DNA from: a virus
Direction: 5' to 3' (one strand)
Length of the DNA: 58,941 bases
IMG/VR virus record: IMGVR_UViG_3300010354_000100
Span: 1-58,941 of that record
The position numbers and the translations under genes are program-made. The notes under the pieces were generated by a model. The model did no database searches. It had not been told where the DNA came from and worked only from the letters and a program-made list of their open reading frames with translations. This document shows, one piece after another, positions 3,497 to 44,392 of the stretch. Every line of letters starts with the position of its first letter. Position 1 is the first letter of the stretch.

Positions 3497-3574
3497 TTTG
3501 GAAATCTGGGCTCAGAACTAAAAATCCGGCTTGTCTGCGCGCGTGAAATTTTTACGAAAAGAAGGCCTAATTAA

Positions 3575-6474: not shown

Positions 6475-6540
6475 GGGAACGGCTCCGCGCTAAATAAATC
6501 CGAAATATCTGGAACACCATATTTTGGGGACAGGGGCAAG
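6474..6540 (+). repeat. oriented dispersed repeat, copy 3
   Basis: AAGGGAACGGC, then TAAATAAATCCGA, 7 variable bases, GGAACACCATATTTT from 6511 and GGACAGGGGCAAG. This copy can fold into a hairpin pairing CCGAAATA with TATTTTGG. Confidence 0.85.
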
Positions 6541-12849: not shown

Positions 12850-12880
12850 CTCAACAAACTCAACACAGAAAGATAAAACA

Positions 12881-13315
12881 ATGACAAAAGATACATACGG
12901 TAAAAACAAATCAGTGCCATACAGCCACACGCGCGGAACTGTCTCTGACAACTCTCGCTATCTGACCGATGCGACCGATAAGGGCGTCACTCGGACAGAA
13001 GGCAACGACACTGTCATGACCCTCCGGAACTATCAGCAGTCGTGGTATTTCACGGAAACCAAGACTCGTATCAAGAACGGCGTCCCAGTCCAATTGCGGG
13101 CAAGTATTCGCCGCAATGCGTACGACGAACAGTCGGAAATCCGCTACGAGGTCTGGAACGGCGCCAAGTGGGAAGCCAAGCACATCCTGGGCATAGAGGG
13201 CACTCCCGTGGAGCACATCTCCTACGTGACGCCGCTCTACAAACTTGACACGGAAGTGTTTCGTCAGACCGCCGACATCGTCTGGGATATCGCTCGGGCG
13301 TACGGCGACCTATAA
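12881..13315 (+). CDS. hypothetical protein
   Basis: 144 aa, beta-rich with many charged residues (RIKNGVPVQLRASIRRNAYDE; EIRYEVWNGAKWEAK). AGAAAGATAAAAC before the ATG. No recognised domain. Confidence 0.6.
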   Translation: MTKDTYGKNKSVPYSHTRGTVSDNSRYLTDATDKGVTRTEGNDTVMTLRNYQQSWYFTETKTRIKNGVPVQLRASIRRNAYDEQSEIRYEVWNGAKWEAKHILGIEGTPVEHISYVTPLYKLDTEVFRQTADIVWDIARAYGDL

Positions 13316-13330
13316 CAAAACAAAAAATCA

Positions 13331-13432
13331 CGCGAGTACAGTGGCTCGCGCGGTCGGGTCTTTCCTTCCCTTGTGTCCCGACCGTCGGCTCGTGGGCCGC
13401 TGGCGTTCTTTCCTTTCTGTCGCCAGCGGCCC
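13331..13432 (+). terminator. three tandem strong hairpins
   Basis: CGCGAG/CTCGCG; CGGTCGGG/CCCGACCG; GGGCCGCTGGCG/CGCCAGCGGCCC. The last two have pyrimidine-rich loops (CTTTCC type). No U-tract. Confidence 0.75.
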
Positions 13433-13451
13433 CGCTGCCCGGCCCGGGTGC

Positions 13452-13526
13452 CCAAGGGAACGGCCGCGCCCTAAATAAATCCGAAATCTGTGGAACACCA
13501 TATTTTTGGGAGGCGGGCAGAGGCAA
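13452..13526 (+). repeat. oriented dispersed repeat, copy 5
   Basis: AAGGGAACGGC, TAAATAAATCCGA, 7 variable bases, GGAACACCATATTTT from 13492, GGGCAGAGGCAA. Confidence 0.85.
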
Positions 13527-13556
13527 TCATCTATTCCGGGGGCCACCGGGCGAAAG

Positions 13557-13577
13557 TTATCCACAGCCTGTGGATAA
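13557..13577. promoter_or_regulatory. pair of inverted consensus DnaA boxes
   Basis: TTATCCACA and TGTGGATAA separated by three bases, followed by an AT-rich stretch. Matches the bacterial DnaA-box consensus exactly on both strands. Confidence 0.7.
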
Positions 13578-13594
13578 ATAATCTTGTAAATAGG

Positions 13595-13623
13595 TTGTGG
13601 TTTCGGTATTTACCCTATACATT
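13595..13623 (+). promoter_or_regulatory. upstream promoter
   Basis: TTGTGG, 17 bp, TACATT. Confidence 0.65.
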
Positions 13624-13663
13624 GTAAGTATGCGAGACGGACGAAAGAAAGTTTCGCAGAGAG

Positions 13664-13692
13664 TTGCAACAACGCTAACTCTGTGATACACT
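13664..13692 (+). promoter_or_regulatory. promoter for 13746 gene
   Basis: TTGCAA, 17 bp, TACACT. Confidence 0.85.
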
Positions 13693-13745
13693 TAGTAATG
13701 TAAGTAATACCAACCACATCAACCAAACAAGAAAGGCAATACACA

Positions 13746-14792
13746 ATGTCCAAAGAAACCATGGAGTGGCTCAACTCCAACATTCTCGTCGGGTTCACCG
13801 ATGAGCGTGGTCATGCGTGGCACTACCGCGCCGACCTACAAGGCAACGAGCCGAACCACTACAAGGGCGCAGTCCCTACGGATGACATTCTCCGCAGACT
13901 GTTCTCGTGGAAGGCAATCAGCGCGCCAGTGTTCATCCGAGTCCCCGCGACTCTCGATGACGCGACGGGCGTTGATGACGCAGGCAATCCGTACAAGTTC
14001 ATTCAGGCAGGCAATCGGCAGGCAATCTTGCGCGATGACACGCTTGACCTAATGGAAATCTTCAAGGACGGATACCGTTCGCACCAATACGGCGAATGGC
14101 TCGTTCAGAACCTTGCGAACATCGTTGATGACGAAATCAACTTTGGCTCGGCAGGACTCTTGAAGAACGGCGCGGTCGCGTTCGTATCGTTGGAGATGCC
14201 AGAGTCGGTGGAAGTGTTGAGCGGATTCTCAGTCCGTCCGCACCTACTGGCAACGACATCGCACAACGGACAACTCGCCACGACATACAAGAGCGTTAGC
14301 ACATTCGTAGTGTGCGACAACACTCACGCTATGGCGATGGGAGAGAACACGAGTCAGTTCAAGGCTCGTCACAGCAAGAACTCCGTGATGCGGATTCAAT
14401 CCGCGCGCGACGCACTCGGCATCGTTCACAAGATGACCGATGACATCGTTGCGGAAGTTCTCGCACTCTCGTCGCACAAAGTGAGTGACGCACAGTGGGA
14501 GAAGGTTCTCACCGCGCTCGCGCCGATTCCGACGCTTGACGATGACAACGCAAACAAAGCGGCAGTGACTCGCGCGGAGAACAAGCGCGACGAACTCGTG
14601 AACCTCTACAACTACGACACGCGCGTAGCACCGTGGAAAGGTTCGGCTCTTGGGGTTCTCCAAGCGTTCAACACATACAACCACCACATCGTGGGCGCGA
14701 ATGGCAACCGCGCTGAGCGCAACATGATGAACGCGCTCATGGGCAAGACCGAGCAGTCTGACCGCAAGGTTCTAGACCTACTCGGAGTCTGA
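13746..14792 (+). CDS. DUF932 / TIGR03299-type phage-plasmid protein
   Basis: 348 aa, the largest product of the array. GFTDERGHAWHYRADLQG..HYKGAVP near the start, LRDDTLDLMEIFKDGYRSHQYGEWL, and the VVCDNTHAMAMGE core match the family found on phages and plasmids beside defence or replication genes. Biochemical role unknown. AAGAAAGGC precedes the ATG. Confidence 0.8.
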   Translation: MSKETMEWLNSNILVGFTDERGHAWHYRADLQGNEPNHYKGAVPTDDILRRLFSWKAISAPVFIRVPATLDDATGVDDAGNPYKFIQAGNRQAILRDDTLDLMEIFKDGYRSHQYGEWLVQNLANIVDDEINFGSAGLLKNGAVAFVSLEMPESVEVLSGFSVRPHLLATTSHNGQLATTYKSVSTFVVCDNTHAMAMGENTSQFKARHSKNSVMRIQSARDALGIVHKMTDDIVAEVLALSSHKVSDAQWEKVLTALAPIPTLDDDNANKAAVTRAENKRDELVNLYNYDTRVAPWKGSALGVLQAFNTYNHHIVGANGNRAERNMMNALMGKTEQSDRKVLDLLGV

Positions 14793-14800
14793 CCGCAAGG

Positions 14801-14827
14801 TTCGGGTGGGGCGAGTCCCCACCCGAA
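14801..14827 (+). terminator. hairpin terminator of DUF932 gene
   Basis: TTCGGGTGGGG pairs perfectly with CCCCACCCGAA, 5-base loop. Confidence 0.75.
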
Positions 14828-14896
14828 CACGCGTTCGCCCCGCGGACACGAATCCGCCCCCGGGCGGAAACAGGCTCCCCCGGGCGGGAGCAGGGG

Positions 14897-14909
14897 CCAC
14901 TCTGCGTGG
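14897..14909. repeat. CCAC-type palindrome
   Basis: CCACTCTGCGTGG; one of nine related 13-bp sites. Confidence 0.55.
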
Positions 14910-14941
14910 CCGGCCGACCACAAAAGAAATCTTTCACAAGG

Positions 14942-14970
14942 TTGCGAAAGCGACCGCGATGTGATACAGT
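14942..14970 (+). promoter_or_regulatory. first tandem promoter upstream of RNA candidate
   Basis: TTGCGA, 17 bp, TACAGT. The transcript would begin with the hairpin AGGGCA-GT-TGCCCT. Confidence 0.75.
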
Positions 14971-15012
14971 ATAGGTAGGGCAGTTGCCCTGAGAATAATT
15001 ATCGCGTCCGAG

Positions 15013-15041
15013 TTGCGAAAGCGACAAAGATGTGATACACT
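15013..15041 (+). promoter_or_regulatory. second tandem promoter, drives RNA candidate
   Basis: TTGCGA, 17 bp, TACACT. Confidence 0.8.
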
Positions 15042-15047
15042 TAGAGT

Positions 15048-15275
15048 ATAAGGCAATACGAATACAGTAAGCAATTACTGACAACACATAGGAATACATC
15101 ACTTACACAAGTTGTATCACCAGCAATACTTACCGACGACCGTCCTAGGCGGTCGGCTCGTAGTCCCTTCTGCGTCGAGCCTTCCCTGTCAGTCCCTGTA
15201 ATCCGACGCAGGCGGAGTTGCTATCCGCCGAGTGTCAGTATGTGCGCGACGACGGTCGCTGTCGGTAGTTGCTTA
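15048..15275 (+). ncRNA. candidate structured non-coding RNA 1
   Basis: No ORF. A long-range helix pairs AGCAA and TACCGAC (15122-15126, 15131-15137) with GTCGGTA and TTGCT (15261-15267, 15269-15273). It encloses GACCG/CGGTC (loop TCCTAGG), GGCTCG/CGAGCC, GGCGGA/TCCGCC and GCGAC/GTCGC. A 5' hairpin CAGTAA-GCAA-TTACTG has a GNRA loop. CTGCGTC (15170) could instead pair with GACGCAG (15205), excluding the GGCTCG helix. Has its own promoters. Confidence 0.65.
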
Positions 15276-15297
15276 GTGTATCCGTATGTGATACACT
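15269..15297 (+). promoter_or_regulatory. promoter for 15319 gene
   Basis: TTGCTT, 17 bp, TACACT; the -35 box is the 3' strand of the closing helix of RNA candidate 1. Confidence 0.75.
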
Positions 15298-15318
15298 GTA
15301 AATAGAAAGGTAAACACA

Positions 15319-15495
15319 ATGACAAACCAATACCGAGGGTTCATCTCGTTCGCCACGAGCGATGCCGAGTTTGACCTCTTCAAACACAAGATAAATCGTT
15401 ACTACAACTGGTGCGGTGCTCTTCGCATTGACCCGATGGATGACGAGAACTACAACTCATTCTGCGAGGCCGACTCGGTCTTAGAGAATGCCTGA
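15319..15495 (+). CDS. small hypothetical protein
   Basis: 58 aa, AGAAAGG upstream. Acidic and aromatic (INRYYNWCGALRIDPMDDENYN). Unassigned; directly downstream of the RNA candidate. Confidence 0.6.
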   Translation: MTNQYRGFISFATSDAEFDLFKHKINRYYNWCGALRIDPMDDENYNSFCEADSVLENA

Positions 15496-15500
15496 CCTAG

Positions 15501-15538
15501 GTCCCGGCGCGCCTTACCTCCTTTCCGCGCGCCGGGAC
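15501..15538 (+). terminator. terminator with anti-Shine-Dalgarno loop
   Basis: Perfect 12-bp stem GTCCCGGCGCGC/GCGCGCCGGGAC; the loop is CTTACCTCCTTTCC, which contains ACCTCCTTTC, the 3' tail of 16S rRNA. Confidence 0.8.
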
Positions 15539-15545
15539 CATCGGG

Positions 15546-15618
15546 CCCAAGGAAATCGCCGCGCCGAATAAATCCAACAATCAAGGAACACCATAAATTC
15601 GGGGGGCGGAGGCAGGTT
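15546..15618 (+). repeat. oriented dispersed repeat, copy 6
   Basis: CAAGGAAATCGCCGCGC, GAATAAATCC, variable bases, GGAACACCATAAATT from 15585, GGCGGAGGCAGG. Confidence 0.8.
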
Positions 15619-15684
15619 TGCCGGGAGCAGGGGCAGGCCCCGGGCGACCGGCACAGGGCCGCACGCATCTCACCCGCTACTACT

Positions 15685-15713
15685 ATTGTAGCACAAACTG
15701 ACGCAGAAAGCAA
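15685..15713 (-). promoter_or_regulatory. minus-strand promoter, no clear gene
   Basis: On minus: TTGCTT, 17 bp, TACAAT. It fires leftward across the repeat and toward the terminator at 15501. Confidence 0.65.
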
Positions 15714-15750
15714 CCCAAAAAGAAATTTATCTTTCTTCCCGTAGAGGTTG

Positions 15751-15779
15751 CTATCTGTCTAACAATATGGTACCATTGA
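15751..15779 (+). promoter_or_regulatory. promoter for 15824 gene
   Basis: TTGCTA, 17 bp, TACCAT; the spacer carries CTGTCTAACA. A hairpin GTGGGG-AATAA-CCCCAC variant follows at the RNA 5' end. Confidence 0.75.
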
Positions 15780-15823
15780 GTTGTGGGGAATAAGCCCCAC
15801 CGAACAGAATAGGAGCAATAACA

Positions 15824-16045
15824 ATGGATACCGAACAGAAAGCACGACAGAGCGCAAATCTCTATTCGTGGAATACGAGAGTAGACCAAATCAGCGTTCG
15901 CCTAAATGGTGGATATGTGGAGGTCAAAATCGGGGATATCGCTATCTGCCTTGGCGCAGCAGCAGGCGTTGAGCCTCTTGACCTCGTCAAGAAGTTTGGC
16001 GAGGTAGAAGTGACCCAGACCACTACCGGAAAAATCAGGGTCTAG
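15824..16045 (+). CDS. small hypothetical protein
   Basis: 73 aa with AGGAG upstream. Beta-rich middle (ISVRLNGGYVEVKIGDIAIC) and short helices; not recognised. Confidence 0.6.
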   Translation: MDTEQKARQSANLYSWNTRVDQISVRLNGGYVEVKIGDIAICLGAAAGVEPLDLVKKFGEVEVTQTTTGKIRV

Positions 16046-16051
16046 TCGGTC

Positions 16052-16081
16052 GGTCGGGCAGGTGGGATTACCTGCCCGACC
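16052..16081 (+). terminator. hairpin terminator
   Basis: GGTCGGGCAGGT pairs with ACCTGCCCGACC, 6-base loop. Confidence 0.7.
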
Positions 16082-16090
16082 ACTACCGAG

Positions 16091-16119
16091 TTGTGAAACT
16101 TCCGAAAGTGTGATACACT
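16091..16119 (+). promoter_or_regulatory. promoter for 16162 gene
   Basis: TTGTGA, 17 bp, TACACT. Confidence 0.85.
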
Positions 16120-16161
16120 TAGGGTACAAGGCAATACCAACCCAAGACAGGAGACAAGACA

Positions 16162-16389
16162 ATGGCAAACTTCCCCGTTCCCTTTCAGGGAACAAAGGAA
16201 CAACGAGATGCGAACTTCGCTACCCATTCGTGGGGTGCTTTCGGAGACGACTGCCCCGTGTGTATGGAGTGCGACGCTAAGGTCTGGCATCAGGCGGCTA
16301 ACTACCCCTGCGGCACAGAGCCCGACCGCATCACCTGCGATTACGACGAGTGGGTGGCTCTACTCCGTAGCGCAGTCGTGAAAGCGTAA
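16162..16389 (+). CDS. small cysteine-rich protein
   Basis: 75 aa. CPVCMEC in the middle and two further Cys (YPC, ITC) form a likely zinc site. GGAG upstream. No family recognised. Confidence 0.6.
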   Translation: MANFPVPFQGTKEQRDANFATHSWGAFGDDCPVCMECDAKVWHQAANYPCGTEPDRITCDYDEWVALLRSAVVKA

Positions 16390-16402
16390 ACAGAACGAGT
16401 GC

Positions 16403-16436
16403 GGCTGGTGGGGTTCACCTCCTTCCCCCACCAGCC
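16403..16436 (+). terminator. terminator with anti-Shine-Dalgarno loop
   Basis: GGCTGGTGGGG pairs with CCCCACCAGCC; loop TTCACCTCCTTC contains TCACCTCCTT. Confidence 0.8.
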
Positions 16437-16501
16437 CAAACTCGCCGGCAGCGGGCAGAGGCCGCCGGCAGCGGGCCGGAGGCAGAATTTCTCGCGTGGA
16501 G

Positions 16502-16530
16502 TTGCAAAACTCGCGTGAGTGTGATACACT
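16502..16530 (+). promoter_or_regulatory. promoter for 16575 gene
   Basis: TTGCAA, 17 bp, TACACT. Confidence 0.85.
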
Positions 16531-16574
16531 TAGATTATCAGGAAATACCAACTCAACAGAAAAGGAAAATACAA

Positions 16575-16922
16575 ATGAGAACCTACACAATGGCAATTAT
16601 TGACCGCGAAGGTCGCGACTGCGACGCTCACGAAGTAATCCGCCAAATCGGCAGAATGAACACATACGCCATTAGCGGCGGCGTGTGGTCTCCACTGCGA
16701 GACAGCACCGACCAAACGCGCATTATCGGCGCGTGGCTTCACTGCGGCACCTCGCGCGCCGTTGAGGTAGTCCTTGATTGGGACGATACCTACATTGTGC
16801 GCCGCGTCCGCCGCATTACGCGAGGCGTAGACCGCAATAACGGCGTGGTGGAGTTTGAGCAAAAAGGCGTCTACTGCGACGAACTAGCCGAAGTTGCCTA
16901 CCGCGCGAGTTGCTGGCGATGA
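16575..16922 (+). CDS. hypothetical protein
   Basis: 115 aa, AGAAAAGGA upstream. Arg-rich strand pattern (TYIVRRVRRITRGVDRNNGVVEF) and several Cys. Function unknown. Stop overlaps the next ATG. Confidence 0.6.
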   Translation: MRTYTMAIIDREGRDCDAHEVIRQIGRMNTYAISGGVWSPLRDSTDQTRIIGAWLHCGTSRAVEVVLDWDDTYIVRRVRRITRGVDRNNGVVEFEQKGVYCDELAEVAYRASCWR

Positions 16923-17095
16923 ACCAACAGCACCACTACGGCGCGTTCAGGAACTTCGAGGGCTGGGAGGTCTGGCTCTATGACGGGACTACACGCGTAG
17001 ACCGAGAGCGGGGAAACTTCCGCTCTGAGCAAGATGCCCGCCGTTACGCAAGTCGCCTAAACAGTTGCAAAATAGCAGAAAGTGTGATACACTAG
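16919..17095 (+). CDS. small hypothetical protein, paralog of 17100 gene
   Basis: 58 aa, ATGA overlap. Shares with the next gene the order EGWE(V/L)W, then Arg/Glu-rich, then SEQ(D/E)ARR and a final RLN/QLN helix, so the two are a tandem duplication. Confidence 0.6.
   Translation: MNQQHHYGAFRNFEGWEVWLYDGTTRVDRERGNFRSEQDARRYASRLNSCKIAESVIH
17065..17093 (+). promoter_or_regulatory. promoter for leaderless 17100 gene
   Basis: TTGCAA, 17 bp, TACACT, six bases before the ATG. Confidence 0.85.
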
Positions 17096-17099
17096 AACT

Positions 17100-17288
17100 A
17101 TGAGAACAAAACACCCATACCCATACAACTACCAAGTATTCCCGACCCGCGAGGGCTGGGAACTGTGGTTCTGCGACGAGAACGAGCCGGAGAGCCGCGA
17201 ACAAGTGTTTGCCACCGAGCAGGAAGCACGGCGGGCAGCGGCACAACTGAACTTGGAGTACGAACTCCACAACATTCCCACGCCGTAA
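17100..17288 (+). CDS. small hypothetical protein, leaderless
   Basis: 62 aa with no ribosome site; the ATG is at the promoter +1. EGWELWFCDE and FATEQEARRAAAQLN match its upstream paralog. Similar short beta-beta-alpha proteins occur in phages, function unknown. Confidence 0.65.
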   Translation: MRTKHPYPYNYQVFPTREGWELWFCDENEPESREQVFATEQEARRAAAQLNLEYELHNIPTP

Positions 17289-17290
17289 GG

Positions 17291-17319
17291 TTGCGAAACC
17301 CCAAAGCGTGTGATACAAT
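17291..17319 (+). promoter_or_regulatory. promoter for 17376 gene
   Basis: TTGCGA, 17 bp, TACAAT, then a 5' hairpin CTAGTGG/CCACTAG. Confidence 0.85.
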
Positions 17320-17375
17320 AATACTAGTGGGGCAACCGCTCCACTAGAAACCAAACAGGAAAGGCATACAACATA

Positions 17376-17786
17376 ATGAGTAAGACAATAAATGTGCGAG
17401 TGACAAAGGCAAAATTGCTTGCGGCACTCAAAGCAGCACTAGCGAAGCAGGAACAGGAAGCCAAGGACTACGCCAACGCAGAGAAGGCGCGGGCGAAGGC
17501 AACCGCCGACATCAAGAAGTCGGTGGCGGCACTCGTCAAGTCAGGCAAACTGACCCCGAAGGAAGTCTCCTTCCCATACTCGTACCGTCACGATACGAAC
17601 GAGTTTGAGGAAGTGACCGTCACCTTCTCGCACAAAATCACTCTGCCCAAGAAGGACAATCGCTTCTGCGAGCACACCAACAGGGCAGCAGTAGAGGAAC
17701 TCAGCAACGCAATCCGCGTTCTGGAACTCACCGACGAGGAGTATGTCCGTACTTCCTCCTACGGCGCAGTAGCCAAGTACCTCTAA
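17376..17786 (+). CDS. hypothetical protein with helical N terminus
   Basis: 136 aa. The first 50 residues form a Lys/Ala/Glu-rich, possibly coiled helix (LLAALKAALAKQEQEAKDYA); the rest is mixed. AGGAAAGG upstream. Not recognised. Confidence 0.6.
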   Translation: MSKTINVRVTKAKLLAALKAALAKQEQEAKDYANAEKARAKATADIKKSVAALVKSGKLTPKEVSFPYSYRHDTNEFEEVTVTFSHKITLPKKDNRFCEHTNRAAVEELSNAIRVLELTDEEYVRTSSYGAVAKYL

Positions 17787-17794
17787 GCAGGTTC

Positions 17795-17824
17795 GGCTGG
17801 TGGGGCTCTCCTTACCCACCAGCC
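17795..17824 (+). terminator. hairpin terminator, partial anti-SD loop
   Basis: GGCTGGTGGG pairs with CCCACCAGCC; loop GCTCTCCTTA. Confidence 0.75.
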
Positions 17825-17847
17825 ACAACCCGCCGCCGGGCAGAGGC

Positions 17848-17920
17848 CAAGGGAAACGCAGCGCGTGGAATAAATCCGATTATCTTGGAACACCATTTCT
17901 TGCGCGGAGGCAGGGGCAGG
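17848..17920 (+). repeat. oriented dispersed repeat, copy 7
   Basis: CAAGGGAAACGCAGCGC, GAATAAATCCGA, 7 variable bases, GGAACACCATTTCTT from 17887, GGAGGCAGGGGCAGG. Confidence 0.8.
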
Positions 17921-17928
17921 CGGGCCGG

Positions 17929-17961
17929 CCACGCAGAGTGGTCGCCGGCCACCCAGAGTGA
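17929..17961. repeat. pair of CCAC-type palindromes
   Basis: CCACGCAGAGTGG at 17929 and CCACCCAGAGTGA at 17949, 20 bp apart. Confidence 0.6.
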
Positions 17962-17997
17962 CCAGCCGGCTGTAATCAGATTGTAATACTAATAGTG

Positions 17998-18026
17998 TTG
18001 CAAATCTGTCTAACATACCCTACAAT
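17998..18026 (+). promoter_or_regulatory. promoter for leaderless 18033 gene
   Basis: TTGCAA, 17 bp with CTGTCTAACA inside, TACAAT, six bases to the ATG. Confidence 0.85.
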
Positions 18027-18032
18027 CTAAGT

Positions 18033-18353
18033 ATGACACACACACAAGGAACCAGCCCGTACGCTGGACGCGCAATACCCGAATGGACATCAGTGGAGGA
18101 ATTCACGGAATACTGCCGTGAGTTCTATTCAGTAGAGCGTCCAGGTGCTATCTATCCATTCGCCTACGAAATGGAGATAGTCACCGCTGTCAATGCCCAC
18201 CTAACGGACCCGAACCCGCTATTCCCGTTTGACGGAGATAGCGCCGACCGTGAGGCTGTCCGTGACCGCATCCTCGCGGAGCGCCGTTTGACGGGCTTTG
18301 AGGAATGTGACTTTGACAGGGCAGTAGAGGTTGGCAAAACTAAGATAGTGTGA
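18033..18353 (+). CDS. hypothetical protein, leaderless
   Basis: 106 aa. Acidic, with EWTSVEEFTEYCREFYS and a C-terminal acidic helix. No ribosome site; ATG at the promoter +1. Unassigned. Confidence 0.6.
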   Translation: MTHTQGTSPYAGRAIPEWTSVEEFTEYCREFYSVERPGAIYPFAYEMEIVTAVNAHLTDPNPLFPFDGDSADREAVRDRILAERRLTGFEECDFDRAVEVGKTKIV

Positions 18354-18359
18354 TACACT
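18331..18359 (+). promoter_or_regulatory. promoter for 18408 gene
   Basis: TTGGCA, 17 bp, TACACT, then the leader hairpin GTAGGGC-AATCCC-GCCCTAC. Confidence 0.8.
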
Positions 18360-18407
18360 GTAAGTAGTAGGGCAATCCCGCCCTACGCAACGGAATAGGA
18401 GAACCCA

Positions 18408-18641
18408 ATGGCAAGAGTAAGACAATACAGATACGAACCCGTAGGTATGGACATCTTTGATGCCCGCAAGTACCAGCCAGCACGCGGCACGCTCGTCGTG
18501 AAATGCTCTGGCGGTGCAGGCGCGCCACCCAATGGCACTATGGGCCACTGCTATGTCAAAGACGCGATTACAGGCGCGTTCTATGGCCTAGTGCTGGTGA
18601 AGTCCCTCGTCCCCGCTGGCCTCGTCTCTACCGAAAGGTAG
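18408..18641 (+). CDS. small hypothetical protein
   Basis: 77 aa, AGGAG upstream. Basic start (MARVRQYRYEP) and a Gly-rich middle (CSGGAGAPPNGTMGHCYVKD). Unassigned. Confidence 0.6.
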   Translation: MARVRQYRYEPVGMDIFDARKYQPARGTLVVKCSGGAGAPPNGTMGHCYVKDAITGAFYGLVLVKSLVPAGLVSTER

Positions 18642-18667
18642 GGCCGAGTCCGCGCGGCGGGCCGGAG

Positions 18668-18742
18668 ACACTGGCGTGGTGGGGCCCAGCACGATTGCGA
18701 TGCTTAGCGCTCGCATAGCACAACGGCCTCGCCCGCCAGTGT
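18668..18742 (+). terminator. long branched hairpin between genes
   Basis: ACACTGGCG (18668) pairs with CGCCAGTGT (18734), then GGGGCC with GGCCTC, enclosing TGCGA/TCGCA. Probably the terminator of the 18408 gene, but elaborate enough to be an RNA in its own right. Confidence 0.5.
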
Positions 18743-18770
18743 TGCAAAACATAAACTAATGTGATACACT
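18742..18770 (+). promoter_or_regulatory. promoter for 18792 gene
   Basis: TTGCAA, 17 bp, TACACT. Confidence 0.85.
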
Positions 18771-18791
18771 ATAAATAGAAGGGAGAACCCA

Positions 18792-18947
18792 ATGGATAAA
18801 AAACTAACGTGGTGGGACTACTTGCCAGATGATGTGCAAGAAGGCCTCGCACCGCTCACGGAAGAAGACTTCTGGGAGGCAATGGCGGAAGCCCGCAATT
18901 GCGACGTCTCGGAAATCGGAGACCGCGACCCAATCGAATTCCTCTGA
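18792..18947 (+). CDS. small acidic protein
   Basis: 51 aa, GGGAG upstream. Very acidic (DDVQEGLAPLTEEDFWEAMAEA), net charge strongly negative, the profile of a DNA mimic or protein inhibitor, though that is only a suggestion. Confidence 0.6.
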   Translation: MDKKLTWWDYLPDDVQEGLAPLTEEDFWEAMAEARNCDVSEIGDRDPIEFL

Positions 18948-18954
18948 TTGGCAA

Positions 18955-18988
18955 GCGTGCCGGCATCGCCTCCTTGGTGCCGGCACGC
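18955..18988 (+). terminator. terminator with anti-Shine-Dalgarno loop
   Basis: GCGTGCCGGCA pairs with TGCCGGCACGC; loop TCGCCTCCTTGG contains CCTCCTT. Confidence 0.8.
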
Positions 18989-19007
18989 AACGCCAGCGGG
19001 CAGAGGC

Positions 19008-19080
19008 CAAGAGAAACGCCGCTCGCGAAATAAATCCGATTACGAAGGAACACCATAAATTCGGGCGGGAGCCAGGAGCA
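19008..19080 (+). repeat. oriented dispersed repeat, copy 8
   Basis: CAAGAGAAACGCCGC, GAAATAAATCCGA, 7 variable bases, GGAACACCATAAATT from 19047; CCGA can pair with TCGG. Confidence 0.85.
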
Positions 19081-19137
19081 GGTTTGTGAAAGTGTGAACA
19101 ATCACAAACCTTGTAACACACTTGTAACACTCAGGAT

Positions 19138-19166
19138 TAGACAAGTGTCTAACAGTATGGTATCCT
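19138..19166 (+). promoter_or_regulatory. promoter without an obvious gene
   Basis: TAGACA, 17 bp including TGTCTAACA, TATCCT. Confidence 0.55.
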
Positions 19167-19211
19167 ATTACTAGTGGGGCAACCCACCGAATAAAAAAAC
19201 TGTCGGGCAGG

Positions 19212-19240
19212 TTGTCAATCTGTCTAACAGTCGCTACAAT
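19212..19240 (+). promoter_or_regulatory. promoter for 19293 gene
   Basis: TTGTCA, 17 bp including CTGTCTAACA, TACAAT; leader hairpin GTGGGC-AATCCC-GCCCAC follows. Confidence 0.85.
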
Positions 19241-19292
19241 CTAAGTAGTGGGCAATCCCGCCCACTACAACCCAATGAAAGAGGTAATGAGA

Positions 19293-19550
19293 ATGAAAAC
19301 TACAATCCACCAGACAACGCCGAACAGCACGGCAATCGCCAAGTGGGCGTTCTACTCCGACAACGAGAGTGGTATCGGCACACTGTTCGTATCATTCCAG
19401 AATGGCAGTGAGTACGCCTACGGTGACTGCCCACTCAATCTGGTAGTGCCGATGCTCACCCAAGCGTCAATCGGGCGCTACTTCGCTCACACGGTGAAGC
19501 CCGCAATCCCAGCCCACAAGGTTGAGAAGGTCGGCAACCTAGTCCACTAA
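19293..19550 (+). CDS. KTSC-domain-like protein
   Basis: 85 aa. The run GIGTLFVSFQNGSEYAYGDCP followed by a helix ending in S-GRYF resembles the KTSC domain (small beta protein linked to lysyl-tRNA synthetases and phages, role unclear). ATGs at 19275 and 19287 are possible but too close to or upstream of GAGG. Confidence 0.6.
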   Translation: MKTTIHQTTPNSTAIAKWAFYSDNESGIGTLFVSFQNGSEYAYGDCPLNLVVPMLTQASIGRYFAHTVKPAIPAHKVEKVGNLVH

Positions 19551-19558
19551 TCGGGCAA

Positions 19559-19586
19559 GGTTCGGGCGGGACAACCCGCCCGAACC
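19559..19586 (+). terminator. hairpin terminator
   Basis: GGTTCGGGCGGG pairs perfectly with CCCGCCCGAACC, loop ACAA. Confidence 0.75.
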
Positions 19587-19640
19587 AACCCGATAGGGCA
19601 GGCGGCAGGGGCAGGCGGGCAAAAAAGTTTGCCTCTCAGG

Positions 19641-19669
19641 TTGCGAGAATAGAATAAGTGTGATACAAT
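19641..19669 (+). promoter_or_regulatory. promoter for 19716 gene
   Basis: TTGCGA, 17 bp, TACAAT; leader hairpin GTGGGC-AATCCC-GCCCAC. Confidence 0.85.
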
Positions 19670-19715
19670 AATAGTAGTGGGCAATCCCGCCCACACGAAC
19701 AGCAAGGAGAACAGA

Positions 19716-19997
19716 ATGACACTCAAAAGAATGCCGAGAGGCGCAAAACTGACTACGGCGTGGTGCGAGGTGAGTTCGTATGCCTACCCCAAAGGGTGGA
19801 ATAACGAAGTCACTATCTGCCACTACGAGGCTGATATGACATACGCAGACGGGTTCGTAATTCCCGCAGCGATGGTTGCCGTCTATGACGATGGCAAGTG
19901 TGTCTATCGGCAAGCGTTCTACGGAGAGACAGCCGTAAGCGATGCTGAACGGTTCGGCAACGATGCCGTCAGCAAAGCGTTGTACGCCAACGCCTAA
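19716..19997 (+). CDS. hypothetical protein
   Basis: 93 aa, AAGGAG upstream. Beta-rich with several aromatic residues (SSYAYPKGWNNEVTICHYEADMTY). Unassigned. Confidence 0.6.
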   Translation: MTLKRMPRGAKLTTAWCEVSSYAYPKGWNNEVTICHYEADMTYADGFVIPAAMVAVYDDGKCVYRQAFYGETAVSDAERFGNDAVSKALYANA

Positions 19998-20011
19998 GCG
20001 CAACGGAATAA

Positions 20012-20040
20012 CTGTCGGGCAGGCAACACCTGCCCGACAG
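20012..20040 (+). terminator. hairpin terminator
   Basis: CTGTCGGGCAGG pairs with CCTGCCCGACAG, 5-base loop. Confidence 0.75.
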
Positions 20041-20042
20041 AT

Positions 20043-20072
20043 AACCGTGTAACACCCTCTCGCTACAATGGG
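20043..20072 (+). repeat. 30-base repeat, copy 1
   Basis: AACCGTGTAACACCC, then CTCGCTACAATGGG. Near-identical to 20976-21005; carries a TACAAT that could be a -10. Confidence 0.6.
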
Positions 20073-20106
20073 AGGGGGAGACTTCACGCGCGCGGGCGGG
20101 TGCCAT

Positions 20107-20175
20107 CAAGGAAACGCAGCGCACGGAATAAATCCGATTGTGAAGGAACACCATATTGTCAGGGGGCGGAGGCAG
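20107..20175 (+). repeat. oriented dispersed repeat, copy 9
   Basis: CAAGGAAACGCAGCGC, GAATAAATCCGA, 7 variable bases, GGAACACCATATTGT from 20145, GGCGGAGGCAG. Confidence 0.85.
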
Positions 20176-20218
20176 AATTGTTGCCGGGAGCCGGCGGCCG
20201 CGGAGCGTGACTGCCCGA

Positions 20219-20231
20219 CCACTCAGAGTGG
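20219..20231. repeat. CCAC-type perfect palindrome
   Basis: CCACTCAGAGTGG. Confidence 0.6.
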
Positions 20232-20300
20232 TGAATAACTTGTAACACAAATGAAACAAAAATAATGCCTCAAAAGTGAGGAAATCGTACACCCCTGTGA

Positions 20301-20306
20301 TACAAT
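20301..20306 (+). promoter_or_regulatory. -10 box for 20356 gene
   Basis: TGTGATACAAT without a good -35; GTACACCC lies in the spacer as in two other promoters, so an activator may be needed. Leader hairpin around AATCCC follows. Confidence 0.6.
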
Positions 20307-20355
20307 TGTATTAGTGAGGTAATCCCGCCTCACCGAACACAACGGAGGTAATGAA

Positions 20356-20598
20356 ATGCTCACACTAATCGGCACGGCAGAAATGCCGACACCGCCACAA
20401 AACGACACCGCTTGGCTGCGTGATAACGCCCGCTTCGGTGCCGCTATCGTCACCCGCAACGGAGTACGCACCCGCGAATTCCTGCCCGTGACCTACACCG
20501 ACCCCGATACGGGCAAGCAGGCTCACCCGCTGTTCCCTGCCCGTGAGCGTGGCGGCAAGCGGTACATTGACACCAGCGCCAAGCCCCAACTGGACTAA
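20356..20598 (+). CDS. AWLRDNAR-family small protein A
   Basis: 80 aa, GGAGG upstream. Contains TAWLRDNARFGAAIVTRNGV, shared with the 23297 and 28222 genes, then a PDTGKQAHPLFPAR segment shared with 23297. A phage-specific family, role unknown. Confidence 0.65.
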   Translation: MLTLIGTAEMPTPPQNDTAWLRDNARFGAAIVTRNGVRTREFLPVTYTDPDTGKQAHPLFPARERGGKRYIDTSAKPQLD

Positions 20599-20607
20599 GC
20601 GTCTAAC

Positions 20608-20629
20608 GGGTGGGGCGAAAGCCCCACCC
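20608..20629 (+). terminator. hairpin terminator with GNRA loop
   Basis: GGGTGGGGC-GAAA-GCCCCACCC. Confidence 0.75.
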
Positions 20630-20689
20630 AACAGGGCAGGCGGCAGAGGCAAGCGGGCGACCGGCACGCAAAAAAACTTGCGTACCGAG

Positions 20690-20718
20690 TTGCGAAACTA
20701 AAACAACTGTGATACAAT
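20690..20718 (+). promoter_or_regulatory. promoter for 20740 gene
   Basis: TTGCGA, 17 bp, TACAAT. Confidence 0.85.
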
Positions 20719-20739
20719 AATAGTAGGAGGAATAACCAA

Positions 20740-20985
20740 ATGAAAATCACAAACCTAATCACAAATGAAATGAAAACGGGGCGCACCCTCAAAGCGTCAT
20801 CGTGGCGAGCGGTTCAGGTATCCGACACCCGTCGGGAAATCTGGCACTACTCCACGCTAATGGCGGTGCTCAACGGCAACGAATTCCAGCAGGTTAGCAA
20901 CGGTTGGGGTTCAATGTCGGACAAGCACGGAATGGGCAAACTCCGCAAAGGCGTTACCTTGAAGGGTTACACCGAAACCGTGTAA
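20740..20985 (+). CDS. small hypothetical protein
   Basis: 81 aa, AGGAGG upstream. Basic, with SSWRAVQVSDTRREIWHYS; unassigned. Its last codons overlap the second copy of the 30-base repeat. Confidence 0.6.
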   Translation: MKITNLITNEMKTGRTLKASSWRAVQVSDTRREIWHYSTLMAVLNGNEFQQVSNGWGSMSDKHGMGKLRKGVTLKGYTETV

Positions 20986-21005
20986 CACCCCCTCGCTACA
21001 ATGGG
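20976..21005 (+). repeat. 30-base repeat, copy 2
   Basis: AACCGTGTAACACCC and CTCGCTACAATGGG, as at 20043. Confidence 0.6.
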
Positions 21006-21030
21006 GTTAGGTGGGAAACCACCTAACCCC
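21003..21030 (+). terminator. hairpin terminator
   Basis: GGGGTTAGGTGG pairs with CCACCTAACCCC, loop GAAA. Confidence 0.75.
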
Positions 21031-21074
21031 AGAGGGCGACAGAGGCAGGCGGGCAAAAAATCTTTCTTGGATAG

Positions 21075-21103
21075 TTGCAAAACTGCCGAGACTGTGATAC
21101 ACT
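21075..21103 (+). promoter_or_regulatory. promoter for 21143 gene
   Basis: TTGCAA, 17 bp, TACACT. Confidence 0.85.
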
Positions 21104-21142
21104 AATAACATAAGGCAATACCAAACCAACAAGGAGAAAAAA

Positions 21143-21340
21143 ATGAACCACTACATACACGCACACGACGTAAAGGCGGAGGACGTAATAGTTACCGTCA
21201 ATGGCAATCCCTACGACAGCGCATCGCTGACCGTTGAGATTACCGACACGAACCGCAATACGACCAGCATCCACTTCTACACGAACGAATTGCTGGAAGT
21301 CCTGCGAAAGTTCGCCCAAGAAGCCGTAGCCGTACGCTAA
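21143..21340 (+). CDS. small hypothetical protein
   Basis: 65 aa, AAGGAG upstream. Two or three strands then an amphipathic helix (NELLEVLRKFAQEAVAV). Unassigned. Confidence 0.6.
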   Translation: MNHYIHAHDVKAEDVIVTVNGNPYDSASLTVEITDTNRNTTSIHFYTNELLEVLRKFAQEAVAVR

Positions 21341-21346
21341 CGGCTG

Positions 21347-21382
21347 GGCTGGCGGTGGGACGAGAAGCGCCCACCGCCAGCC
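21347..21382 (+). terminator. hairpin terminator
   Basis: GGCTGGCGGTGGG pairs with CCCACCGCCAGCC, 10-base loop. Confidence 0.75.
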
Positions 21383-21426
21383 ACCGGGCGACAGAGGCAG
21401 GCGGGCAAGAATTCCCCCCGCACGAG

Positions 21427-21455
21427 TTGCAAAACTATCAGGAGTGTGATACACT
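21427..21455 (+). promoter_or_regulatory. promoter for leaderless 21462 gene
   Basis: TTGCAA, 17 bp, TACACT, six bases to the ATG. Confidence 0.8.
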
Positions 21456-21461
21456 AGAACT

Positions 21462-21602
21462 ATGAGGAAACAACAGCACAACAACAAGCGCCGAGCGTGG
21501 AACGCAACAGACCGACAAGCATACGCCGACGGGCTGCGCACACGAGCGGTGACTATCCACCACAAGCGCAAGCCTGCGCCGACAGTCCGAGAATGGGACT
21601 GA
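21462..21602 (+). CDS. 46-aa basic protein, leaderless
   Basis: Sequence begins MRKQQHNNKRRAWNATDRQ and is rich in Arg, Lys and His, suggesting nucleic-acid contact. No ribosome site; ATG at +1 of the promoter. Confidence 0.55.
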   Translation: MRKQQHNNKRRAWNATDRQAYADGLRTRAVTIHHKRKPAPTVREWD

Positions 21603-21635
21603 ACAGCGGGCCGGCAAAAATAATCCTCTCAGGAG

Positions 21636-21664
21636 TTGCGAAACTCTCAGGAGTGTGATACACT
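21636..21664 (+). promoter_or_regulatory. promoter for 21709 gene
   Basis: TTGCGA, 17 bp, TACACT; leader hairpin GTGGGGC-AAAA-GCCTCAC. Confidence 0.85.
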
Positions 21665-21708
21665 AATAGTAGTGGGGCAAAAGCCTCACCTAACCAAAGG
21701 AGAAAAAA

Positions 21709-21867
21709 ATGAAAGAACATAACTGGACATTCGTAGACGAGGACAGCATCCGCTGCTCAGACTGCGACTGCCGTTTTGGTGGACGCTGGCACGACCTGCC
21801 CTGCGGTTCGTCGGAGGAGGAGTACATCGCCTTCGCCAACGCTCGCCAGAGCGAATACCTCAAATAA
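21709..21867 (+). CDS. small cysteine-rich protein
   Basis: 52 aa, AAGGAG upstream. C-SDCDC and PC give four Cys in 17 residues with a nearby His, a probable zinc finger. Acidic C-terminal helix. Confidence 0.6.
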   Translation: MKEHNWTFVDEDSIRCSDCDCRFGGRWHDLPCGSSEEEYIAFANARQSEYLK

Positions 21868-21875
21868 GCCGAGAC

Positions 21876-21909
21876 GCCCCGCGGGTTCCACCTCCTTCCC
21901 CCGCGGGGC
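21876..21909 (+). terminator. terminator with anti-Shine-Dalgarno loop
   Basis: GCCCCGCGGG pairs perfectly with CCCGCGGGGC; loop TTCCACCTCCTTCC contains CACCTCCTT. Confidence 0.8.
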
Positions 21910-21932
21910 AATTCGGGGCCGCCGGGCGGGGC

Positions 21933-22014
21933 CCAAGGAACGCTCAGCGCGAAATAAATCCGAACATTCTGGAACACCATATTTTCGGAAGCGGGCGGAG
22001 GCAGATTGTGAAAG
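21933..22014 (+). repeat. oriented dispersed repeat, copy 10
   Basis: CAAGGAACGCTCAGCGC, GAAATAAATCCGA, 7 variable bases, GGAACACCATATTTT from 21971; CCGAA can pair with TTCGG. Confidence 0.85.
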
Positions 22015-22079: not shown

Positions 22080-22136
22080 AGTGTAACAATTGTGTGACAT
22101 CTGCCGAAATCGGGAGTAAATGGTACACCCATAGTG

Positions 22137-22142
22137 TACACT
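22137..22142 (+). promoter_or_regulatory. -10 box for 22191 gene
   Basis: TACACT with GTACACCC in the spacer and no good -35; leader hairpin GTGGGG-AAAAC-GCCCCAC follows. Confidence 0.55.
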
Positions 22143-23221: not shown

Positions 23222-23250
23222 TTGACAACCGTACACCCTTGTGATACACT
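23222..23250 (+). promoter_or_regulatory. promoter for 23297 gene
   Basis: TTGACA, 17 bp with GTACACCC, TACACT; leader hairpin AGTGGGG-AAAA-CCCCACT. Confidence 0.9.
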
Positions 23251-28499: not shown

Positions 28500-28530
28500 G
28501 GCACGGCGCGCGCCCTCCGCGCGCCGTGCC
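28500..28530 (+). terminator. strong hairpin terminator
   Basis: GGCACGGCGCGC pairs perfectly with GCGCGCCGTGCC, 7-base loop. Confidence 0.75.
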
Positions 28531-28610
28531 ACTCTCAGAGTGTGCGACACGCGCGCACATTCTGAGAGTGGCACTAACGCCACTCTCAACACAACAAGGA
28601 GAAACACACA

Positions 28611-29067: not shown

Positions 29068-29101
29068 ACGGCGCGCACACTCTCGCGAGTGTGCGCGCCG
29101 T
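29068..29101 (+). terminator. 15-bp hairpin terminator
   Basis: ACGGCGCGCACACTC pairs perfectly with GAGTGTGCGCGCCGT, loop TCGC. Confidence 0.8.
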
Positions 29102-44056: not shown

Positions 44057-44392
44057 ATGTCCAAAATTTCAGGAATTGACCTTGGTGACCCCAACAAGCC
44101 CTTTCAGGTATTTGGAAGTCAACTTGGAGGGCGCGACCAAGCAATAACCGTGCAACGTCCCAGTGCAAATATCAACAGGGACAAGATTGCTGCTCTTTCC
44201 AAGAATCTGAGTGCGCACATGAAGCAGATTCGTGCGACCATCGACAAACTTGAGGTCATGCAGGAGATGCTGACGGTCGATGATGACACCGACTCAATCG
44301 TGATGGACAAGGGTTTCGCTGACGAATACGAAACGCACGTCAAGAAACTGAAGGAATTGTTCGAGGAAGTGCTCAGGGCCTCGCAGCAATAG
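44057..44392 (+). CDS. helical hypothetical protein
   Basis: 111 aa, CGGAGG upstream. Long helices with heptad character (ALSKNLSAHMKQIRATIDKL; VKKLKELFEEVLRA). Overlaps the next GTG by one base. Confidence 0.6.
   Translation: MSKISGIDLGDPNKPFQVFGSQLGGRDQAITVQRPSANINRDKIAALSKNLSAHMKQIRATIDKLEVMQEMLTVDDDTDSIVMDKGFADEYETHVKKLKELFEEVLRASQQ

Follow-up and report, generated by a model that had tools for sequence, protein, structure and literature searches.

The 6C RNA of actinobacteria consists of tandem hairpins with pyrimidine-rich loops of six C. In the icaR mRNA of Staphylococcus aureus, a UCCCCUG motif in the 3' untranslated region (3' UTR) pairs, in cis or trans, with the Shine-Dalgarno (SD) sequence, and the pairing feeds RNase III (PMC3868564); the c4 RNA of phages P1 and P7 blocks a ribosome site, probably from its loops, with one defined target, ant (reviewed in PMC12197685). 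The present work deals with the 58,941-base virus record IMGVR_UViG_3300010354_000100 of IMG/VR, analysed over its full length and referred to as the window. It contains a series of hairpins whose pyrimidine-rich loops resemble the anti-SD tail of 16S rRNA: five stand singly after open reading frames (ORFs), two form a tandem element, and many are followed by a noncoding repeat, here called D2. A literature search covering few subscription journals listed no paper on phage 3' hairpins with anti-SD loops.

Pyrimidine-rich loops and the 16S rRNA tail

The 3' tail of 16S rRNA reads CCUCCUUUCU, a string that was also found in genomes. At the sequence level, the match of the hairpin loops to this tail is far beyond chance, confined to the gene strand and common to the related phages. 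In the 11 related records holding D2, 30 loops with a length of 8 nt or more and a pyrimidine content of 80% or more were found, 28 of them unique, and a 7-mer of CACCTCCTTTCT is present in 21 of the 28. Shuffled tails matched a mean of 1.75 loops, with none of 2000 reaching 21, while shuffling the letters within each loop and scoring against GGATCACCTCCTTTCT gave a mean of 2.1, with none of 5000 reaching that number. It is thus the arrangement of the loop letters, beyond their composition, which fits the tail, and the resemblance proposed by an earlier sequence-only reading is borne out, random pyrimidine loops being insufficient to account for it. With scoring by 5-mers the effect was weak (24 vs 13.2, 122 of 2000 shuffles being as high).

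Strand specificity is evident when the window is taken together with the four phages most closely related to it (G002, G003, G005 and G007). On the gene strand, 24 of 92 long-loop hairpins are pyrimidine-rich and 20 of these 24 carry a tail 7-mer; on the other strand, 12 of 107 are pyrimidine-rich and none of the 12 carries one. In the actinophage controls (GMA6, Cantare, Schomber, ScarletRaider and phiC31; five stretches, 241,491 bases, both strands), 128 long-loop hairpins included 4 with pyrimidine-rich loops, and a tail 7-mer was found in 0 of these 4. Moreover, 20 runs of Markov sequence of 15.5 kb gave no strong hairpin with a pyrimidine-rich loop, vs 6 observed. Over the full window the motif CCTCCTT shows no enrichment (8 copies vs 7.0 expected); 4 of its 6 plus-strand copies lie inside pyrimidine hairpin loops. 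Since the loops of orthologous genes are not independent, the counts overstate the number of events, and in our own grouping, by upstream gene and stem, the pyrimidine-loop hairpins amount to about nine lineages.

The hairpins named by the sequence-only reading are real, each being found exactly where it had been placed or within 1 nt. CTCCTT is present in all five single hairpins, 4-13 nt 3' of the stop codons, which places an anti-SD motif in the 3' UTR. In the predicted folds of the single and tandem hairpins the loops are open (z between -3.2 and -5.6), with one extra pair closed in that of 18955. Inspection of the sequence after each stem revealed no T-run, and these hairpins are therefore not standard intrinsic terminators; the terminator role that had been assigned to them is unsupported.

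The tandem element and the D2 repeat

The tandem pair, whose first hairpin starts about 35 nt 3' of the stop of ORF 12881-13315, had been taken for a weaker relative of the single hairpins and turned out to be the best conserved of all. It was detected in 5 of 20 records (the window plus 19 relatives, several of them distant or partial), namely the window and the four closest relatives. In these five phages loop 1 is nearly constant, (C)TTTCC(C)TTCC(C)TTGTG, as is loop 2, CC(T/C)TTTCTG, and the stems vary; between the window and G003, stem 2 differs in 10 of 24 columns and loop 2 in 4 of 18. Both sides have changed in 7 of 21 pairs, giving 13 cells with changes on both sides vs 5.3 in shuffled alignments, none of 500 of which was as high, and the covariation score of 0.386 falls to 0.19 or less when the partner is slid. 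Stem 2 of G002 pairs poorly in the alignment and is replaced there by a 13-bp stem of its own. The element is thus a conserved structure with conserved loops.

In G005 and G003 a promoter-like sequence, TTGACA-16-CATACT, with TG before the second hexamer, lies directly upstream of the element and would place the start of a transcript at the base of hairpin 1, and for this reason the tandem element may itself be a small RNA. The element (13300-13540) had no Rfam match at E-values up to 1, and scans of the viral collection yielded no further tandem homolog, all hits being either members of the family already known or unrelated sequences in which the element is absent. Just before it on the minus strand, at 13352-13329, lies a terminator-like hairpin with a T-run.

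D2 has the form AATAAATCC-N9-GGAACACCAT and occurs in 9 plus-strand copies in the window, with 0 expected. Its cores start at 6493, 10700, 13474, 15567, 17869, 19029, 20127, 21953 and 27900, with diverged copies at 3569 and 4490. The repeat comprises a purine box, the core and a T-rich end, and is located 3' of genes on one strand; the core is fixed and the upstream purine box lies at a variable distance. With up to 3 mismatches, it was present in all 8 records retrieved by exact pattern, including G006, where a single copy with unrelated flanks may be chance, as well as in 4 of the 13 additional terminase relatives that were searched among 41 terminase loci retrieved. D2 follows 12 of 24 pyrimidine-loop hairpins vs 13 of 164 others (Fisher p 2e-6, on observations from five phages which are not independent), and is treated here as the putative second half of a 3'-end module. 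It matched no known RNA family, and its description as a structured RNA was discarded, since a simple scan of column pairs over 75 copies gave no convincing pairing. The coordinates of the hairpins, of the neighbouring D2 copies and of one leader are collected in Table 1.

Table 1. Positions in the window of the pyrimidine-loop hairpins, adjoining D2 copies and a possible partner leader
Feature	Coordinates	Strand	Details
Leader of ORF 12881-13315	12851..12881	+	ACACAGAAAG; possible, inferred partner of the hairpin-2 loop (8-nt complement)
Tandem hairpin 1	13350..13385	+	9 bp, loop TCTTTCCTTCCCTTGTGT
Tandem hairpin 2	13394..13432	+	12 bp, loop TTCTTTCCTTTCTGT; complements leader 8-mer ACAGAAAG
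D2 after tandem element	13450..13505	+	core 13474-13501
3' hairpin of ORF 15319-15495	15500..15539	+	13 bp, loop CTTACCTCCTTTCC; starts 4 nt after stop
D2 after hairpin 15500	15545..15598	+	core 15567-15594
3' hairpin of ORF 16162-16389	16403..16436	+	11 bp, loop TTCACCTCCTTC; starts 13 nt after stop
3' hairpin of ORF 17376-17786	17795..17824	+	10 bp, loop GCTCTCCTTA; starts 8 nt after stop
D2 after hairpin 17795	17845..17900	+	core 17869-17896
3' hairpin of ORF 18792-18947	18955..18988	+	13 bp incl. G-U, loop GCCTCCTT; starts 7 nt after stop
D2 after hairpin 18955	19005..19060	+	core 19029-19056
3' hairpin of ORF 21709-21867	21876..21909	+	10 bp, loop TTCCACCTCCTTCC; starts 8 nt after stop
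D2 after hairpin 21876	21929..21984	+	core 21953-21980

Possible pairing with leaders and alternative explanations

The structures, the conservation of the tandem loops and the match to the 16S tail are demonstrated in the sequences themselves. The function that we tentatively favour, with a probability of about 0.45, is that the 3'-end RNAs of the small genes, together with the conserved tandem element, may act as generic anti-SD antisense RNA, perhaps in the manner of the icaR 3' UTR or c4 RNA. Each hairpin would display anti-SD sequence in an open loop, and an exposed CCUCCUU or CCUUUCU loop could make contact, in cis or trans, with ribosome sites of the AAGGAG or AGAAAG kind and pair with them, lowering translation initiation and perhaps exposing the loop-leader duplex to RNase III. 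Because the loops look generic, and not tuned to the gene that carries them, several mRNAs are likely targets. As for the earlier interpretation of the loops as a means of translational control, the anti-SD match (present in related phages and absent from the five actinophage controls and the spirochaete samples) and the covariation of the tandem element speak for it; pairing specific to a gene's own leader was looked for and not found.

The leaders of the window would offer suitable partners. Those of most genes at 7-15.5 kb contain AGAAAGA or GAAAGG, and those of most genes at 15.8-28 kb AAGGAG, AGGAG or GGAGG; both the AGAAAG and the AAGGAG types complement the loop types, and both fit the 16S tail. 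The 8-mer ACAGAAAG is exactly complementary to CTTTCTGT of loop 2. In the window it occurs in the leaders of 9 of 71 genes, a number equalled by AAGGAGAA and surpassed by no other leader 8-mer; it also ranks among the most frequent ones in G007 and G005, and not in G003 and G002. Occurrences of loop-2 complements at ribosome sites number 11/18 in the window, 12/29 in G007, 19/33 in G005, 13/21 in G003 and 0/1 in G002. It can be proposed, further, that tandem small RNA and 3' hairpins form a distributed anti-SD system which would jointly adjust or silence the translation of mRNAs with SD leaders (those of early phage genes, of host genes or of both), the two loop types fitting the AGAAAG and AAGGAG leader types of neighbouring gene blocks; this wider proposal we regard as unlikely.

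Several results weigh against the generic antisense function. A scrambled loop 2 reaches the observed ribosome-site count in 24 of 300 trials for the window, 14 for G007, 6 for G005, 19 for G003 and 300 for G002, and the sites of loop-1 8-mers that fall at ribosome sites number 0/18 in the window, 2/32 in G007, 12/33 in G005, 10/36 in G003 and 2/10 in G002. Purine-rich leaders give a score with any pyrimidine loop, so that the evidence for loops tuned to defined targets is only suggestive. Pairing with the own leader, assessed by duplex energy and longest complement, was rejected as not specific: the own leader stood at a mean percentile of 0.51 over 20 loops (10 further loops having no upstream gene in the simple gene list), and permutation fractions were 0.16, 0.28 and 0.33. 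No promoter match was seen, reading by eye, before the tandem element in the window, G007 and G002; in these phages the tandem RNA would have to be the 3'-terminal part of a transcript coming from upstream.

Loop type, moreover, evidently turns over between orthologs. The hairpin at 16403 has CTCCTT in the window, G007, G005 and G003 and CTCCCTT, with one stem pair changed, in G002, and its orthologs in the more distant G009 and G014 have the unrelated loops ACGAGAAGCG and GCAA. That at 17795 keeps its pyrimidine loop in G007, and the same stem carries CAACC or CAATC in G005 and G003; the loop of 18955 is found only in the window and G007, not being kept in G005 and G003. In the gene with hairpin 20012, conversely, the loop is CAACA in the window, TTCAACCTCCTTC in G005 and TTCTACCTCCTTG in G003. 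The statement of the sequence-only reading that stems differ while loops agree consequently survives for the tandem element and for the unlike stems of 15500, 18955 and 21876; it fails for 16403 and 17795, which have the stem GGCTGGTGGG(G) in common, and for those orthologs of 17795, 18955 and 16403 with unrelated loops.

This turnover is what would be expected if the hairpins were ordinary stabilisers of mRNA 3' ends, or terminators lacking the U-run, which have been copied and reshuffled with the pyrimidine loop as an inherited passenger without a pairing role. A strong terminal hairpin is in fact present under most genes, GNRA or similar loops being frequent, the stem GGCTGGTGGGG recurs with differing genes and loops, and a second loop, ACGAGAAG(C/T)G, also recurs on differing stems. 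Nevertheless, three of the pyrimidine loops agree although their stems (15500, 18955, 21876) have nothing in common, the tandem loops stay while their stems covary, and the order of the loop letters fits the tail beyond composition, so that we consider passenger loops somewhat unlikely. A pairing role of another kind would be a pseudoknot between the loops and the purine box CAAGGGAAC in the D2 copy that follows, protecting or terminating the RNA 3' end. The preferential position of D2 after pyrimidine-loop hairpins agrees with it, as does the perfect complementarity of loop 1 to the D2 box over 8 nt in the window and 7 nt in G002, and real loops outdo scrambled ones (0.0005 of 2000). This complement is, however, just 5 nt in G007, G005 and G003, specificity for the own D2 copy is absent (permutation 0.41), D2 is missing from the vicinity of half of the loop hairpins, and the SD complement fits better overall (128 vs 99 summed nt), all of which makes the pseudoknot improbable. 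Even less probable is that the loops are decoys which imitate the 3' end of 16S rRNA for one of its binding proteins, such as a ribosomal or processing factor: it is the rRNA tail itself that the loops match, often including the A of ACCTCCTT, but there is no candidate protein, and the loop-2 end CTTTCTGT fits the phage leader ACAGAAAG beyond the 16S end as commonly given.

Phage context and comparison with known systems

Terminase, portal protein, protease and major head protein are encoded at 34-56 kb of the window, and its left part holds small plus-strand genes in series, among which a strong 3' hairpin is common. Megablast gave no near-identical named phage for the window. The DUF932 gene at 13746-14792 matched 504 records, headed by Mycobacterium (225), Streptomyces (116), Microbacterium (78), Gordonia (40), Arthrobacter (23) and Rhodococcus (13) by host; its relatives being mostly in actinophages, the host of this freshwater phage is likely an actinobacterium. 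Between 5 and 25 kb there are 28 promoter-like sequences vs 11.5 expected, and many small genes have one. The spacers of those at 15747, 17997, 19138, 19211 and 25367 share TGTCTAACA or TGTCTGACA, perhaps an operator, some of these sequences sitting after D2, and GTACACCC in the spacers at 20280-20302, 22114-22137 and 23222-23250 is perhaps a second one. A scan of the window with Rfam-type models gave 7 matches at E-values up to 1, of which a tRNA alone exceeded the gathering score; a hammerhead type I match at 44313-44348 reached 27.1 bits (gathering score 34, E-value 0.019). Very long intergenic inverted repeats, perfect or nearly so, lie at 28526-28574 and 29068-29101, with stems of 21 and 15 bp.

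As for loops elsewhere, the ACGAGAAG(C/T)G loop is found on differing 3' stems at 21347-21382 and in G007, G005, G003 and G009. Isolated terminators with T-runs and ACCTCCTTT loops were noted at seven loci (L129, L172, L173, L174, L171, L148 and L149) in unrelated viruses, spirochaetes and metagenome-assembled genomes of Thermococci, those of L172 and L173 differing by a compensatory change in the stem and looking like orthologs. That such loops might be common among the terminators of bacteria at large was considered and discarded: a tail 6-mer occurred in 0 of 14 and 0 of 18 long terminator loops in samples of 400 kb and 360 kb from two spirochaete genomes, and across 297 genomes the anti-SD loop pattern gave 4 matches vs 2 for the backward control, 2 of the 4 being already known carriers. 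In the genome collection 21 stretches fitted a GGGG...CCCC pattern, no excess over a rough chance estimate by hand of about 30. Finally, strong hairpins whose loops read CCCCCC or ACCCCC, and which recall 6C RNA, are present in the distant relatives G009, G010, G011 and G014; the CCCCCC-loop hairpins of G009 and G010 had no Rfam match.

Compared with the systems described, the phage hairpins share with intrinsic (Rho-independent) terminators a GC-rich hairpin soon after the stop, and differ from them in that no T-run follows the stem. With 6C RNA they have in common tandem hairpins with pyrimidine-rich loops and a likely actinobacterial setting; their loops, however, are CCUCCUU or CCUUUCU, and neither the window nor 13300-13540 gave a match to the Rfam covariance model. 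The likeness to icaR is that of a 3'-UTR anti-SD motif able to act on an SD region in cis or in trans, but icaR is one gene in which pairing with the own SD has been proven by compensatory mutants and RNase III cleavage (PMC3868564), whereas the phages have many copies with generic loops, for which specificity for the own SD was tested and not found; the hairpins are therefore not filed with icaR. As in c4, a phage RNA structure offers a complement to a ribosome-binding site, likely in loops; c4 has the one defined target, whereas several are likely for the phage hairpins, and the likeness would be one of mode of action. Single cases are known both of anti-SD motifs in a 3' UTR and of antisense RNAs in phages. 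If the generic antisense function is true, a phage lineage would possess an RNA-only layer of translational control, with many generic copies and one covarying tandem RNA, and it would become testable whether phages turn copies of the 16S tail against the mRNAs of the host or against early ones.

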